IMG/VR virus record: IMGVR_UViG_3300047276_000260
Coordinates: 1 to 36,293 of that record
DNA length: 36,293 nt
From: a virus
Reading direction: 5' to 3' (one strand)
In this document: one piece after another, positions 21,131-29,615 of the stretch
How the letters are laid out: each line of letters starts with the position of its first letter
Numbering within the stretch: the first letter of the stretch is position 1
Translations under genes and position numbers: made by a program
The notes under the pieces: generated by a model
What the model was told of the DNA's origin: nothing
The model's database searches: none
What the model saw: only the letters and a program-made list of their open reading frames with translations

Positions 21131-22447
21131 ATGCGCCACTACCTCGAACAATCCGTCTACGACGCCGCTATCGAGCGGCTGGATTTCATCTTTCAGCACT
21201 TCACCCGTGTCTACGTCTCCTTCTCTGGTGGCAAGGACAGCGGTGTTCTCCTCAATCTCGTTTGCGACTACGTGCGAGAGCGCAAGCTGCCGATCAAGAT
21301 TGGCGTCCAGATCATGGACAACGAGGCCAACTACACCCACAGCGAGGAGTTCATGCATCGCATCCTCCAAGCCAACCGGGACATCCTTGACATCTATTGG
21401 TGCTGCCTGCCCATCACGCTTCCCTGCACCGTCAGCTCCTACGAGATTGACTGGCAGTGCTGGGGTGAGCAGGATCGGCACCGCTGGATTCGCCCCATGC
21501 CGCAGCAGGATTACATCGTCAACCTGCAGAACCATCCTTTTGGCGACCTGTTCATGGAGAACATGGACTACGCCACCTTCTGGGACATGTTCGCGGAGTG
21601 GTACAGCCAAGGAGAGCCCTGCGCCAATCTGATCGGCATCCGCACCGTTGAATCGCTCAACCGGTTTCGGGCCATCCTGAATCAGGACAAGGAGACCATG
21701 CTCGGCCGCATGTGGACCAAGAAGAACACCGATCACACCTACAACTGTTATCCCATCTACGACTGGCGAACGGAGGATATCTGGACCGCTAACGCGAAGT
21801 TCGGCTGGGATTACAACAAGCTCTATGACGTGTTCTATATGGCTGGCATTCCCATTAAAAAGATGCGGGTTGCCTCGCCCTTTATGTCAGAGTCCAAATC
21901 AAGCCTGGCGATGTACCGGGTAATTGACCCGCAGGTATGGGCCAGGCTTTGCGCCAGGGTCGGCGGTGCAAACTTCATGGCCACCTATGGCAAACAGCTT
22001 GACTACAAATCCTTCAAGCTGCCAGCAGGCCACACATGGAAATCATTTGTGAAGTTCTTGCTGGCCACGCTGCCAGATCAATCCAGCGCAAATTTTAAGC
22101 AGCGCTTCATTCAGTCAATCCGTTACTGGGGCCGAGTGGGGCGCGGTCTTCCTGAGTCAATCATTGATGCGCTTAGCCGTATCGGCATTCGTTTCTACAT
22201 CAATGGCACCACGCGGCATGGCGGGAACAATCTGCGCCGTGTTGTGATCAAGGTGCCACCTGATCATCTCGATGATCTGCCGTGTCACAACAGCATGGTC
22301 ACATCGTGGAAGCGCTTTGCCATCACGGTTCTAAAGAACGACCACACCTGCAAGTATCTGGGCCTGGCGCCAACGCAAGAGCAGCAGCGCCGCCAGAAAT
22401 CAATCCAACGTAAGTACAGCCAAGTCCTCAACCGGTCCGCTAAATGA
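21131..22447 (+). CDS. IbrA-like PP-loop protein (DUF3440, PAPS reductase family)
   Basis: A 438-residue protein. Residues 28-40 carry V-S-F-S-G-G-K-D-S-G-V-L, the ATP-pyrophosphatase (PP) loop of PAPS reductases and related AMP-forming enzymes. Further characteristic elements are I-M-D-N-E-A-N-Y, W-C-C-L-P-I-T-L, L-I-G-I-R-T-V-E-S, the W-R-T-E-D-I-W motif and a C-terminal part with H-N-S-M-V-T-S-W-K-R-F typical of DUF3440. E. coli IbrA belongs here and works with IbrB; its biochemical activity is not settled in my knowledge. It would activate a substrate by adenylation, perhaps for sulfur transfer. It is coupled by ATGA to the next gene. Confidence 0.85.
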   Translation: MRHYLEQSVYDAAIERLDFIFQHFTRVYVSFSGGKDSGVLLNLVCDYVRERKLPIKIGVQIMDNEANYTHSEEFMHRILQANRDILDIYWCCLPITLPCTVSSYEIDWQCWGEQDRHRWIRPMPQQDYIVNLQNHPFGDLFMENMDYATFWDMFAEWYSQGEPCANLIGIRTVESLNRFRAILNQDKETMLGRMWTKKNTDHTYNCYPIYDWRTEDIWTANAKFGWDYNKLYDVFYMAGIPIKKMRVASPFMSESKSSLAMYRVIDPQVWARLCARVGGANFMATYGKQLDYKSFKLPAGHTWKSFVKFLLATLPDQSSANFKQRFIQSIRYWGRVGRGLPESIIDALSRIGIRFYINGTTRHGGNNLRRVVIKVPPDHLDDLPCHNSMVTSWKRFAITVLKNDHTCKYLGLAPTQEQQRRQKSIQRKYSQVLNRSAK

Positions 22448-23385
22448 AGATCCTCAACACCTCACAGCTTCCAGCTGATCGCATTGTCAACTGCCCAAAG
22501 GGCGGTTTCACCAGCCATCGCTTGCTCACGGAAGACGACGGCATGGGATACAGCATGACTAAAACCATCGTGCATCCTGGCAAGCCGCACCGCTGGCACT
22601 ATCAGCATCACCTTGAAACGTGCTACTGCGTCAGCGGCAAAGGTCTGCTGATTAACGAGGCAACCCAAGAGATCCACGCCATCGCGCCTGATGTGACCTA
22701 TGTGCTGGACAAACATGATCCCCACAGTTTTGAAGCCCTAGAGCCCACCACCTTGATTTGCGTATTCAACCCACCCCTCAAAGGAGATGAACTGCATGAC
22801 GAGAACGATTCATACCCTTGGCGATCCCCGGTCTACTCCGTACGAAGTATTCCTATCGAGAAGGTTACCGCCAATGATTACAACCCCAACTCTGTGGCGC
22901 CGCCTGAAATGGCGCTACTCGAAACATCCATCTGGGAAGACGGTTACACGCAACCTGTCGTTGTCGTGCATGATGCCGAGCGTGACCTTTATGTGGTCGT
23001 TGACGGTTTTCACCGTTATCTGACTCTGAAGAATAGCCAGCGCATCCGCGAACGCGAAGGTGGCCGCCTCCCAGTTGTGGTGCTGCGCAAGGAGCTGCAC
23101 GACCGGATGGCTTCCACCATCCGTCACAACCGCGCCCGTGGTTCGCACAACATCGAACTGATGAGCGTGATCGTTGCTGAGCTAATTGAGATGGGCAAGG
23201 GTGACGCATGGATTTGCAAGCACATCGGCATGAGCCCTGATGAGCTGTTGCGGCTTAAGCAAGTCACCGGGTTGGCGTCGCTGTTCCTTGGTAAAGATTT
23301 CAGCAAGGCATGGGACGTGGATCAGATCGACAACATCACGGAGGATCTCGAACGTGAAGCTCAAGAGGATCTGGTTGCCCATTGA
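22444..23385 (+). CDS. Ectoine synthase-like cupin fused to IbrB/ParB-like domain
   Basis: A 313-residue fusion. Residues 1-125 follow L-ectoine synthase (EctC) almost end to end: L-L-T-E-D-D-G-M-G-Y-S, W-H-Y-Q-H-H-L-E-T-C-Y-C, V-L-D-K-H-D-P-H, C-V-F-N-P-P-L-K-G and E-L-H-D-E. By recall of the EctC structure its iron ligands are Glu, Tyr and His, here E58, Y86 and H94, and the substrate pocket residues Y53, H56, C106, F108, E116 and H118 are also kept. Residues 130-313 are IbrB/ParB-like: P-I-E-K-V-T-A-N-D-Y-N-P-N and V-V-V-D-G-F-H-R-Y with the ParB/sulfiredoxin D-G-x-H-R motif, then an R-H-N-R-A-R-G helix and an HTH-like C-terminus. Full ectoine genes (ectA, ectB) are absent. No such fusion is known to me. 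Confidence 0.85.
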   Translation: MKILNTSQLPADRIVNCPKGGFTSHRLLTEDDGMGYSMTKTIVHPGKPHRWHYQHHLETCYCVSGKGLLINEATQEIHAIAPDVTYVLDKHDPHSFEALEPTTLICVFNPPLKGDELHDENDSYPWRSPVYSVRSIPIEKVTANDYNPNSVAPPEMALLETSIWEDGYTQPVVVVHDAERDLYVVVDGFHRYLTLKNSQRIREREGGRLPVVVLRKELHDRMASTIRHNRARGSHNIELMSVIVAELIEMGKGDAWICKHIGMSPDELLRLKQVTGLASLFLGKDFSKAWDVDQIDNITEDLEREAQEDLVAH

Positions 23386-25351: not shown

Positions 25352-25688
25352 GACCACCCTCCAGCAGCAAATACGCCTCGCACTCGGTAGCCGTACTGAT
25401 CTGCGCCTCTTTCGTAATCAGGTAGGCCAGCTGCCAGATCCACGCACCGGCCGGCCCGTGCAGTTTGGCCTGGCCCGTGGCTCAGCTGATCTCATCGGCT
25501 GGCGCACTATCACCGTGACCCCAGAGATGGTCGGCCAGCAGTTGGCTGTGTTCACCTCTATAGAAGTCAAAACCGAGCGGGGCCATGTGCGACCAGAGCA
25601 GCACGCATGGCAGCGCACCGTATCGGCCGCAGGTGGCATCGCAGGTATTGCCCGCTCAATCCAAGACGCAAACGATCTCGTGAGATAG
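25338..25688 (+). CDS. VRR-NUC domain nuclease
   Basis: A 116-residue, single-domain nuclease with GTG start at 25338, overlapping the helicase gene by 14 bases. The residues R-L-F-R-N-Q-V-G, G-L-A-R-G-S-A-D-L-I-G-W and S-I-E-V-K-T-E-R-G form the PD-(D/E)XK type metal site (Asp, then Glu-x-Lys) followed by the family's Gln in P-E-Q-H-A-W. Stand-alone VRR-NUC proteins of phages act as structure-specific, probably Holliday junction or branched DNA nucleases, and often pair with an SF2 helicase as here. Confidence 0.88.
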   Translation: MANAETTLQQQIRLALGSRTDLRLFRNQVGQLPDPRTGRPVQFGLARGSADLIGWRTITVTPEMVGQQLAVFTSIEVKTERGHVRPEQHAWQRTVSAAGGIAGIARSIQDANDLVR

Positions 25689-25699
25689 GTTGCCAACCT
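25687..25699. repeat. Palindrome AGGTTG-C-CAACCT upstream of primase
   Basis: A 13-base dyad with 6-base perfect arms around one central base, lying in the 55-base gap before the primase gene. On the minus strand 25691-25700 reads AAGGTTGGCA and so contains the iteron-like unit AGGTTGGCA that recurs at 27914-27931. A further inverted repeat (ACGGCT/AGCCGT, 25722-25742) follows just upstream of the GTG start. Confidence 0.5.
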
Positions 25700-25743
25700 T
25701 GCTCACCTAGCGCACACTCTGACGGCTCCTTTCGATAGCCGTT

Positions 25744-27774
25744 GTGGCAACCATCGTCGATCAGCTGCAAGACATACCCGACTCGTGGGCCTTGGTGGCA
25801 GTAGGCAACGACAAGCGCCCCTACCAGCCTGAATGGCAAAAGCACCCTCTAAACAAGCGCGGCATTGAATCCGAACTGTCAGCAGGTCGCGCCGTCGCAG
25901 TTGGCGTCCTAGCCGGCCCACCATCCGGTGGCCTCCTGTTCGTTGATCACGATGGCCTCGGCGCCTCAGAGGTGCTTGAATCGCTCGGCACATCACTGCG
26001 CGAGCTGCCCAAGTCCTGGGCAGTCACATCCGGCCGTGATGGGCGCCTACAGATCATCTACCGCGTTCCTGAACCGTTCTGGGATCAGATCAAAACCACC
26101 AAGCTGCGCAGCAGCATCAAAGGCGAGCAACTCGAACTGCGCTGGACCGGCTGCCAGTCCGTTGTCATCGGCAAGCACCCCATCACTGGCTCCTACCGCT
26201 GGCTCAATGGCCGCGCACCTGGTGACCTACCTATCGCAGACGCTCCATCCGTGCTGCTGCAGCAGATGCAACGGCACATCGAAACGCCGCCCCTGCTGCC
26301 TACCAATACCACCGACGACACCGAACGCGCTCGCCAGTACCTCGCCAACATTCCAAGCTCCATCGCTGATGACTACGACGAATGGGTCAAGGTCGGCATG
26401 GCACTGCACAGTGTCGGCAATGACTCGCTTCTGTCCGACTGGTGCCAGTGGTCTGCAGCATCCGGCAAGTTCAAGCCCGGCGAATGCGAAGCCAAATGGG
26501 CATCCTTCAATTCCGACACCGGCGGCGTTGGCCTCGGCACCCTCTACCACCTAGCCGGTGGCATCTCGCCACGTCAGCAGGCCATCAAGGCGCTTCAGTC
26601 CGTCCTCGGCCCTGATGTTGCCCAGTCAGCAGGCGCTGCCAAACCCATCAAGCTTGAAACCGGCGAGCTGCTCACCCTGCTGCGCCAGCAGCTGACAGAC
26701 CGCCTGCGCTTCAACATCTACACCCAAGCCGTTGAGCTAGACGGCAAGGCCATCACAGACCTAGAGCACTACTACCTCCAGTTGGCCCAGCTCAATATCA
26801 AGGTCGGCAAGGAGCTGGCCGCTGATGCCTTGGTGTTCGTCGCCAAGGAAAACCAGTTCGATCCCGTCCGCGACTACCTAGACCGCGTAGCCGACGAGGT
26901 GCCACCGGCATCCATCGATCACCTTGCCACCAGCTACCTGCGCCCGCAAGACCAGCCCGGCACCCTCTACGACGCAATGCTGCGCTGCACCCTGATTGCA
27001 GCCGTCCGTCGCATCTATGAACCCGGCAGCAAGCACGATGCCGCCTGCGTCCTCATGGGCACCCAAGGCTGCGGTAAGTCAACCTTTTGGCGCAACCTCG
27101 GCGGTCCGTTCTTCTCTGATGCCCTAGGCGATATCAACAACAAAGACGACCTACTTCTGGTCGGCAAAGCCTGGATCCATGAGTGGGGCGAGATCGACCG
27201 CATCACCGGCAAGAACCACGCCGGCAAGATCAAAGCCTTCCTATCCCGTCAAACCGATTCCTATCGCGTGCCCTACGGCAAGGCGATGGAGGACTTCCCG
27301 CGCCGTTCAATCATCGTCGGTTCCACCAACCGGGACACCGGCTTCCTGATCGACGACACCGGCAACCGCCGCTTCTGGGTGATCCCTGTCGACGTGCAGG
27401 GAATGATCGAGGTCGATGGCCTGCTCCTTGAACGCGACTCACTGTGGTCCGCAGCAGTCGCCGCATACAAAGCCGGCGAACCCAATCACCTGCCCCGCGA
27501 CCTGGAGCGCCAAGTGGCAGATGCAAACCTTGCCTACCTCGTTGAATCTCCTTGGCTCGCTCCGGTTAGAGAATGGTTGGCATCACCCCGAAACGCTGGG
27601 ATCCCAGTCACCACGGAGGTTCTGCTCACTGATGCCATCGGAAAGCCCATCGAGCGCCAGTCTCGTGCGGACCAGATGCAGCTCGCATCCATCCTCAGGG
27701 AGCTTGGACTGGTCAAACGACGCCGCCTCATCGATGGTACCCAGAAATGGGTCTATTGCCTACCTCCCGGCTGA
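25744..27774 (+). CDS. Primase-polymerase / VirE-type helicase replication protein
   Basis: A 676-residue replication protein with GTG start. Residues about 1-180 form a prim-pol (AEP) type domain with K-R-P-Y, V-A-V-G-V-L-A-G and L-L-F-V-D-H-D-G, whose D-H-D provides the metal site. Residues about 195-275 match PriCT-2 (R-A-R-Q-Y-L-A-N-I-P, D-E-W-V-K-V-G-M-A-L). Residues about 390-590 form the VirE/VapE ATPase: M-G-T-Q-G-C-G-K-S-T (Walker A near 440), H-E-W-G-E-I-D and R-R-S-I-I-V-G-S-T-N. It would prime and unwind the phage origin. Repeats at both gene ends could be its binding sites. Confidence 0.88.
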   Translation: MATIVDQLQDIPDSWALVAVGNDKRPYQPEWQKHPLNKRGIESELSAGRAVAVGVLAGPPSGGLLFVDHDGLGASEVLESLGTSLRELPKSWAVTSGRDGRLQIIYRVPEPFWDQIKTTKLRSSIKGEQLELRWTGCQSVVIGKHPITGSYRWLNGRAPGDLPIADAPSVLLQQMQRHIETPPLLPTNTTDDTERARQYLANIPSSIADDYDEWVKVGMALHSVGNDSLLSDWCQWSAASGKFKPGECEAKWASFNSDTGGVGLGTLYHLAGGISPRQQAIKALQSVLGPDVAQSAGAAKPIKLETGELLTLLRQQLTDRLRFNIYTQAVELDGKAITDLEHYYLQLAQLNIKVGKELAADALVFVAKENQFDPVRDYLDRVADEVPPASIDHLATSYLRPQDQPGTLYDAMLRCTLIAAVRRIYEPGSKHDAACVLMGTQGCGKSTFWRNLGGPFFSDALGDINNKDDLLLVGKAWIHEWGEIDRITGKNHAGKIKAFLSRQTDSYRVPYGKAMEDFPRRSIIVGSTNRDTGFLIDDTGNRRFWVIPVDVQGMIEVDGLLLERDSLWSAAVAAYKAGEPNHLPRDLERQVADANLAYLVESPWLAPVREWLASPRNAGIPVTTEVLLTDAIGKPIERQSRADQMQLASILRELGLVKRRRLIDGTQKWVYCLPPG

Positions 27775-27783
27775 GGTAGGCAA
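27756..27783. repeat. Perfect 11-bp hairpin at the end of the primase gene
   Basis: TTGCCTACCTC (27756-27766), loop CCGGCT, GAGGTAGGCAA (27773-27783): a perfect 11-base inverted repeat that includes the stop codon. The following bases are not T-rich, so it is a poor classical terminator. Each arm contains the GAGGTAGGCA unit that appears again at 27904 and, inverted, at 27975. Confidence 0.85.
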
Positions 27784-27803
27784 CCTCAGATCCATTGGTA
27801 TGG

Positions 27804-27910
27804 CTGCCTTCTTCTACCCTCTCCTACCTTCCTACTTCTTCTAAAGAGTAAATAGAAATAGAGAGGAGAGGGGGAGAGGGGAGGAAAAAGGAAAAGATAT
27901 AGGGAGGTAG
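27804..27910. other. Polypyrimidine tract followed by polypurine tract
   Basis: The + strand is almost only C and T from 27807 to 27841 (for example CTTCTTCTACCCTCTCCT) and then almost only A and G from 27842 to 27910 (GAGGAGAGGGGGAGAGGGGAGG and similar). CCCTCTCCT in the first part is complementary to AGGAGAGGG in the second, so a large hairpin or triplex-like structure is possible. No gene fits in 27775-28010. Together with the repeats it suggests a replication origin or structured control region. Confidence 0.6.
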
Positions 27911-27985
27911 GCAGAGGTTGGCAGGTTGGCAAGTCTCAAACCCGTCTCAAATGAGACACGTGAGACATCCGATTTGCCTACCTCC
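27904..27985. repeat. Iteron-like GAGGTWGGCA cluster
   Basis: Head-to-tail units GAGGTAGGCA (27904-27913), GAGGTTGGCA (27914-27923) and the shortened GGTTGGCA (27924-27931), then an inverted unit TGCCTACCTC (27975-27984). GGAGGTAGGCA (27903-27913) and TGCCTACCTCC (27975-27985) form an 11-base perfect inverted repeat. Short tandem repeats downstream of a replication protein gene are typical of iteron origins. The function is an inference. Confidence 0.6.
27933..27966. promoter_or_regulatory. GTCTCA/TGAGAC operator-like cluster
   Basis: Four half sites in 34 bases: GTCTCA (27933-27938), GTCTCA (27944-27949), TGAGAC (27952-27957) and TGAGAC (27961-27966). The inner pair forms the dyad GTCTCA-AA-TGAGAC and the outer pair an additional larger one. 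The same half sites occur as AGTCTC-GT-GAGACT in the divergent region at 15191-15204. This suggests a regulator binding to both loci, in front of the late operon and the early region. Confidence 0.5.
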
Positions 27986-28010
27986 GGCGTCCGCCTCCTA
28001 CCCTTGGGAC

Positions 28011-28703
28011 ATGGCCCTATCCATCACCGTCGACACCACCGGCCTGCAGGCACTGGCCAAGCAATCCAGCGCCTTGGCCAAACAGTTGCCATTTGCCGTC
28101 AGCCTCGCTCTGAATGGCTCGGCAAAGGGCAGCCGCTCTATACCCGGCTCAGATGCCTACAACGTCGTCAAGGCGCTTGCAGGGGCCTCTCGTGGCTATT
28201 TTGATCAACCGACCCCGTTCATTGAAAAGGCATGGCGTGCAACCAACGCCAACAAAGCCAACCCTGAGGTGACCATCTACCCAGAAGACAAGCGCGTCAA
28301 ATACCTCAAGGCGCACATCACCGGCGGCGCTCGTACCTACAAGGGCTATGAAGCCAAGCTGCTTGGACTCAGTAACGAAAGCGTGCAAGCCCTCATCCCA
28401 TCGTTCGTCAAGCGCAACCAGGCAGGGAACGCCACCCGTGGCACGCTCGGGAAGATCATCCAAGCAAGCGCCGCCAAAGGCCCCGGCTCGGTCTTGGTTG
28501 GTAAGCCACGTGGTGGAAACCGCCCAGTAGGCGTTTATGAACGCACCAAGCAGGGCAGCCTAAAACCGTTGTTCGTGGCGCAGCCGACAGCTATCTACCG
28601 CGGTGGCTTCCCCTTAAGCCAGACCACGGCAACCGTAATTAACCGGCGCTTCAGTTCCTACCTAGAGGCAGCCCTTGAACAGGCTCTAAAGTCCGCCCGT
28701 TAA
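28011..28703 (+). CDS. Tail completion-type minor tail protein (gpZ-like)
   Basis: A 230-residue protein from ATG 28011; the open frame extends upstream but runs into the repeat region, so this first good ATG is chosen. Features are L-A-K-Q-S-S-A-L-A-K-Q-L-P-F-A-V-S-L-A-L-N, a basic middle part, and the end G-V-Y-E-R-T-K-Q-G-S-L-K-P-L-F-V followed by a helical tail, resembling gpZ/gp10-like tail completion proteins. Lambda gpZ is 192 residues. A location upstream of the terminase genes rather than in the tail operon is uncommon. The family call is by pattern and only moderately certain. Confidence 0.55.
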   Translation: MALSITVDTTGLQALAKQSSALAKQLPFAVSLALNGSAKGSRSIPGSDAYNVVKALAGASRGYFDQPTPFIEKAWRATNANKANPEVTIYPEDKRVKYLKAHITGGARTYKGYEAKLLGLSNESVQALIPSFVKRNQAGNATRGTLGKIIQASAAKGPGSVLVGKPRGGNRPVGVYERTKQGSLKPLFVAQPTAIYRGGFPLSQTTATVINRRFSSYLEAALEQALKSAR

Positions 28704-29390: not shown

Positions 29391-29615
29391 GCCAAGCGCA
29401 AGAATCGTGAGATCGACTGCGCCGCAATGAGTTTGGGTCCTTCTGCCCAAAAGCCGGAGGGTGATCGCAAGGCCCTTTTTTCATTTAGCGTCAGACGCCA
29501 AAGCCCCTAAACCCTTGCGGCGCAAGGGGTCTGGGCAATTCTCAATAAGCCGCCCCCTAGTCCCATTTAAGGCGGTTTAGCGGCAGTTAAGTTAAGTGAG
29601 GTTCTACTTAACTCT
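29391..29615. other. Non-coding region before terminase, candidate cos site
   Basis: No gene fits in these 225 bases. They hold GGGTCCTT (29435-29442) pairing with AAGGCCC (29469-29475) ahead of T6 (29476-29481), a possible terminator for the HNH gene. Two perfect odd palindromes follow: GCGTC-A-GACGC (29488-29498) and CCCTTGCG-G-CGCAAGGG (29512-29528). GC-rich dyads between an HNH gene and the small terminase gene are where a lambda/HK97 type cos site is expected. This assignment is inference. Confidence 0.45.
29590..29613. promoter_or_regulatory. Inverted repeat over the terminase start
   Basis: AGTTAAGT (29590-29597), loop GAGGTTCT, ACTTAACT (29606-29613): 8-base perfect arms ending two bases before the GTG start of the small terminase gene. 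The loop holds GAGG, the only Shine-Dalgarno-like element. As RNA the hairpin would expose the ribosome site in its loop; as DNA it could be a terminase or regulator binding site. Confidence 0.55.

Follow-up and report, generated by a model that had tools for sequence, protein, structure and literature searches.

A repeat array directly 3' of the primase-helicase gene is very probably where a freshwater cyanophage starts copying its DNA, and its units co-vary with the primase C-terminus

The stretch of DNA analysed here, referred to as the window, is an entire IMG/VR virus record of 36,293 bp from a freshwater cyanophage, classed as 'linear', and counts of repeat units in the whole genome are counts within this record. 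The window encodes a primase-helicase (Table 1) that matches the primase/helicase PHROG and contains the Pfam domains PF09250 (residues 14–168), PF08707 (residues 196–271), and PF05272 (residues 391–596). The full model of the protein has its best structural match in PDB 7pds, PriRep1 with dsDNA, which the primase profile also reaches by sequence (6e-37). The AAA+ part of this model is of low confidence (residues 464–542 below 50), so no claim is built on its details. Genes for a VRR-NUC protein and a DEAD/ResIII helicase lie upstream of the primase gene, and those for a minor-tail-like protein, an HNH nuclease, the small and large terminase, and the portal lie downstream, with the next gene starting at 28011. 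The window also encodes, at 22444–23385, an odd phage fusion of 313 residues, in which an ectoine-synthase/cupin-like N-terminus (PF06339) is joined to a ParB-like domain.

Table 1. Features at and around the primase gene, in window coordinates.
Feature	Position	Strand	Basis
Upstream element: unit TGCCAACCTT (25691–25700) and degenerate unit (25700–25708)	25690..25718	+	sequence, conservation
Prim-Pol/PriCT-2/VapE primase-helicase, 676 aa, proposed origin-binding initiator	25744..27774	+	Pfam, PHROG, PDB
GAGGTAGGCA copy inside primase gene	27531..27540	-	exact match
Codons of primase residues ~598–672, predicted winged-helix DNA-binding domain, proposed iteron reader	27535..27759	+	AF2, co-variation
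Iteron, left arm of inverted pair over stop codon	27757..27766	-	exact match
Iteron, right arm of inverted pair, overlapping TGA stop	27773..27782	+	exact match
Two weaker leftward units, CCTACCTT and CCTACTTC	27823..27838	-	positions +48, +56
AT-rich segment, candidate DNA-unwinding element	27825..27864	.	70% AT in 40 bp
Uninterrupted purine tract, 38 nt	27860..27897	+	base composition
Iteron GAGGTAGGCA, rightward array	27904..27913	+	exact match
Iteron GAGGTTGGCA, rightward array	27914..27923	+	sequence match
Iteron GGTTGGCA, rightward array	27924..27931	+	GGTWGGCA count
Second repeat family GTCTCA, GTCTCA, TGAGAC, TGAGAC	27933..27966	.	repeat listing
Iteron GAGGTAGGCA, inverted, array end	27975..27984	-	exact match

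The GAGGTWGGCA repeats, to which an earlier note on this DNA had drawn attention, are real. The record contains six exact copies of the unit where 0.15 would be expected, a count that no shuffle attained, and all six fall within 454 bp (27531–27984) rather than being spread at random, five of them packed into 228 bp directly 3' of the primase gene. For the shorter GGTWGGCA, 13 copies are present where 3.1 are expected, ten of them at 25691–27982 and six at 27757–27982. When one mismatch to GAGGTWGGCA is allowed over the whole window, the excess is modest (11 against 5.0), so the signal resides in the local cluster. The positions given in the earlier note are all correct, namely those of the full units at 27773 and 27904 on the plus strand and at 27757 and 27975 on the minus strand, of the variant GAGGTTGGCA at 27914 (+), of the shortened copy GGTTGGCA at 27924 (+), and of the minus-strand copy AAGGTTGGCA at 25691–25700. 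It had overlooked the copy at 27531 inside the gene, which is probably not part of the origin proposed below, and two weaker units in the array centre, at 27823 and 27831 (-), whose counterpart in relatives consists of CTAACCT repeats.

From the primase stop codon to 28011, the elements follow in the order of the stop-codon inverted pair, the two weaker leftward units, the AT-richest 40-mers, the purine run, three rightward units, the TGAGAC cluster, and the last inverted unit. The AT-richest 40-mers of the entire record fall inside the array, the AT content of the candidate unwinding element being reached by just 0.008% of the record's windows, and, apart from the purine tract, the record has no run of purines or pyrimidines that reaches 15. 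The second repeat family is retained in close relatives and missing from most of the clusters listed. In several relatives (e.g., loci L042, L050, and L114), an imperfect palindrome like AGATCCCTTGCGCTGCAAGGGGTTT recurs in the spacer that separates the inverted pair from the central units; it is found near the ends of relatives' contigs too, and perhaps represents a mobile or terminator-like repeat of the host group.

Two scans of viral contigs yielded 152 loci with a complete 3' end, mostly from IMG/VR and with Synechococcus phage S-LBS1 as the sole isolate, which form 51 protein clusters at 85% identity. The comparison with related phages that the earlier note had recommended places the array at the equivalent position throughout these loci, with a common layout in which an inverted pair close to the stop codon is followed by leftward units, then by an AT-rich segment with a purine tract, and finally by rightward units. 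The unit itself varies by lineage, and at least ten distinct units are seen, among them GGTAGGCA, GGTTGGCA, GGTTGGG, GGTTGGAA, GGTAGGGCA, GGTTGGGAC, GATAGGACG, GGTGGGGTAC, GGTCGGATC, and GGTTGGTA. Most of the 51 clusters repeat their own unit well above dinucleotide shuffles; nine (L020, L041, L042, L047, L049, L058, L082, L085, and L146) do no better than the best shuffle. The copies inside one genome change together, as the 9-mers of the inverted pair recur 6.9 times in the array of their own genome against 1.1 times in the arrays of other lineages, and none of 20000 permutations attains the observed mean. Across the 51 clusters, the units left of the AT-rich centre point leftward in 114 of 143 cases (114 against 29), and those to its right point rightward in 130 of 162 (130 against 32). 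In many loci, the left arm of this pair is part of the coding sequence, and its core, CCNACCT, occurs in all three codon phases among the relatives (58, 5, and 27 loci), which argues for selection on the DNA and not on the peptide.

The perfect 11-base hairpins described in the earlier note are also present, both arm pairs being exact over 11 bp: TTGCCTACCTC (27756–27766) pairs with GAGGTAGGCAA (27773–27783), the right arm of which overlaps the TGA stop codon of the primase gene (27772–27774), and GGAGGTAGGCA (27903–27913) pairs with TGCCTACCTCC (27975–27985). Arms of this exactness could represent RNA hairpins, such as a terminator or an mRNA 3'-end structure, or a stem-loop origin of the pRN1 kind; the pRN1 origin consists of a large stem-loop located 3' of the prim-pol gene, and a stem-loop origin has been proposed for phage BIP-1 (PMC4234260). 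Either form of this explanation is highly improbable, since 8 of the 13 members of the window's cluster have mismatches between the arms, with each arm staying within the iteron consensus, since perfect pairing over 9 bp is seen in just 49 of 105 inverted pairs, and since the majority of units form direct repeats that belong to no stem. A terminator scan gave no match at the hairpin, and the terminator reading was rejected; at the stop-codon pair, the arms are not kept complementary as in a conserved stem-loop of the pRN1 type. The hairpins reflect pairs of sites in inverted orientation and are not conserved as stems.

Repeats do lie on both sides of the primase gene, as had been claimed, but the proposed origin corresponds to the 3' array at 27756–27985 and does not straddle the gene. 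The upstream element comprises two leftward units that overlap a possible promoter, TTGCCA-17-CACACT; a sigma-70 scan for a primase promoter gave no match, so this promoter is proposed from conservation alone. The element is retained in most relatives of the window's clade and is missing in S-LBS1-type loci, where the 3' array persists. It was rejected as a part of the origin because of this absence, and the 25691 copy probably represents an operator in its own right, confined to the window's clade, a candidate site by which the primase could keep its own expression in check. The overlap with a possible promoter, and a conserved TACCCT box directly after the array and before the next gene, would also be compatible with the repeats being transcriptional operators only, serving the primase gene and the operon from 28011, with the primase or another phage protein acting on them as repressor or activator and replication beginning elsewhere. 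This is unlikely, as an operator has no need of two opposed sets, one on either side of the AT-richest DNA and a 38-nt purine tract, and as the S-LBS1-type relatives keep the 3' array without the upstream element. The TACCCT box of the window is followed by exactly 6 nt and then ATG (27999–28013). Such a box lies within +60 to +500 of the primase stop codon in 95 of 152 relatives, and its distance to the ATG is exactly 6 in 57 of the 69 relatives that have an ATG within 40 nt; where the distance is longer, an AGGAGG-type ribosome site often lies in between. The box looks like a -10 element for a leaderless start of the next operon.

Pairwise iteron similarity was compared with the identity of eleven primase segments, controlling for the rest of the protein. 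The partial rank correlation is 0.47 for residues 591–630 and 0.62 for residues 631–672, against at most 0.23 for all other segments, and a partial Mantel test controlling for the core gave 0/2000. Within the primase, it is only the final ~80 residues (segments 591–672) that iteron type follows. AlphaFold2 predicts three helices and then a beta-hairpin for this C-terminus, with a pLDDT of 92–96 over most of it, and the Foldseek matches, each of them weak, include winged helices of the PadR, MarR, and Fur types; the domain is accordingly predicted to be a winged helix. The suggestion in the earlier note that the repeats are primase binding sites, forming either an iteron origin or an operator, gains support from this co-variation of sites and protein through the C-terminal ~80 residues only, a pattern that favours binding by the primase. 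In about 50 lineages, the protein and the start site seem to be evolving together like lock and key.

A natural exchange is seen between two of the loci. The primases of L098 and L106 are about 90–100% identical up to residue 593 (92–100% in most segments) and 51–55% identical thereafter, and the respective units are GGTAGGGCA and GGTTGGCA; the C-terminus of L106 resembles those of L103 and L091, both of which use GGTTGGCA. At the nucleotide level, identity falls 268 bases before the stop codon and returns 281 bases past it, so the C-terminal domain and the array were swapped as one cassette of ~550 bp. Thirty-two pairs combine a core identity of at least 90% with a C-terminal identity of at most 62%. 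The C-terminal codons adjoin the array, and linkage contributes to the association. Since the two segments touch and moved as one stretch in the L098/L106 swap, they might simply hitch-hike, as neighbours that recombine together without functional contact. Hitch-hiking as the sole cause is nonetheless very unlikely: the dispersed copies shift to one unit per lineage, which requires a shared reader, and the controls leave most of the association in place. With cluster representatives only, and with the core, the non-iteron origin (spacer) DNA, and the downstream gene as controls, the C-terminus still gives 0.43, whereas the downstream gene alone gives 0.04 and the adjacent residues 521–590 give 0.09. 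Tentatively, the C-terminus and the origin may constitute an exchangeable, rapidly diversifying recognition cassette that changes both by point change and by recombination of the ~550-bp module. Each lineage would then acquire a private replication origin, perhaps avoiding satellite parasitism or interference by co-infecting relatives. The dozens of natural domain/iteron pairs provide a rare data set for reading the DNA-recognition code of an initiator.

The region 27756–27985 is very likely the replication origin of the phage, an iteron origin of the SaPI/PICI type that would be bound through the primase C-terminus. Tandem short repeats beside an AT-rich region, general features of iteron origins, are present in the window, and binding by the initiator is presumed. 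In the proposed mechanism, the single primase-polymerase/VapE chain would bind the ~8–10 bp repeats by its C-terminal winged helix, and complexes would assemble on the leftward and rightward sets, facing apart across the AT-rich/purine segment. This segment would then melt, two helicase rings would load on the opened DNA, and the fused Prim-Pol domain would prime both strands. From the work on SaPI, PICI, and SCCmec elements (PMC6092414, PMC7581432), we infer physical binding, melting, and initiation at this site, along with ring loading and a bidirectional start. GC skew, which had been put forward as a check, is weakly supportive, with its minimum at 29.56 kb, 1.8 kb past the array and near the packaging genes. 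The minimum lies 1.1–1.9 kb beyond the array in four of five relatives, and the fifth (G009) has none near the array. GC skew was dropped as proof of the origin because of this offset and the absence in G009, and its minimum may instead follow the packaging genes or cos.

In SaPIs and PICIs, the iteron origin lies directly 3' of rep, with two sets flanking an AT-rich region, and the C-terminal domain of Rep binds the iterons (PMC6092414, PMC7581432). The phage array similarly begins at the stop codon of the initiator gene, at an equivalent place in the 152 loci, its iteron sets lie on both sides of the AT-richest segment, and the co-variation and the natural swap suggest that the iterons are read by the C-terminal domain. 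The VapE core also aligns with PDB 7pds, described as 'Similar to D. nodosus vapE'. Unlike these elements, the phage combines Prim-Pol and VapE helicase in one chain, and its array includes a long purine tract and a pair of inverted units spanning the stop codon. It is also equipped with terminase and portal genes of its own, and small-terminase and minor-tail matches are found in the window as well. Its proposed origin is of the PICI type, but the phage is not itself a PICI, which would be a satellite dependent on the packaging and capsid genes of a helper phage. The two sets also have opposed polarity in the phage, a possible difference from PICI origins.

Similar arrangements are found in more distant systems. 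The putative origin of SCCmec Cch2/CCPol-MP has short direct repeats 3' of the initiator helicase gene, which are bound by a C-terminal domain (PMC7581432), and the phage resembles it in the place of the repeats and, apparently, in the C-terminal reader; SCCmec differs in its Primase_Cterm/D5_N helicase, its three 5-nt iterons, and its separate polymerase. ORF904 of pRN1 likewise unites Prim-Pol, helicase, and C-terminal winged helix in one protein, with the origin directly 3' of its gene (PMC4234260), but pRN1 is an archaeal plasmid with an SF3 helicase and a stem-loop origin of ~100 nt without iterons. Among 17 distant VapE phages or satellites, the strongest repeat cluster lies directly 3' of the VapE gene in seven (PS3, CL31, GaryLarson, phi2, Javan297, NatCom_18656, and, weakly, BK745P3), U5 has a cluster in the next gap, Stiles is tied, and the remaining eight have no such cluster near the gene. 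A universal rule of a 3' array for all VapE phages was therefore rejected, and the arrangement is widespread and not universal. As a guide to finding origins, a private short repeat may be searched for just 3' of the VapE gene. No described iteron origin of a VapE phage was found in the open-access literature. In the 1990s, an origin-like noncoding element was reportedly described close to the primase gene of Streptococcus thermophilus phage Sfi21.

S-LBS1 is the nearest isolate primase relative (56% over the aligned part), and its 3' array is built on AGGTTGGGCA / AGGTTAGGCA, a unit that differs from that of the window. The array is unannotated in the S-LBS1 record, and the S-LBS1 paper uses none of the expressions 'origin of replication', 'repeat', and 'GC skew'. 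The S-LBS1 record (locus L087, MG271909.1, 34.24–34.64 kb) stops inside the repeat array, of which a stretch of more than 100 nt is present twice at the record end, and this doubling suggests an assembly problem or a truncated end. The contigs of many other relatives (L008, L009, L012, L013, L027, L048, L072, and others) stop ~0.9–1.1 kb past the primase at a common GGGTCCTTC...GYGGGTCGTTCG. The window continues through the counterpart of this sequence at 29435–29443, and the shared contig end is probably a cos end.
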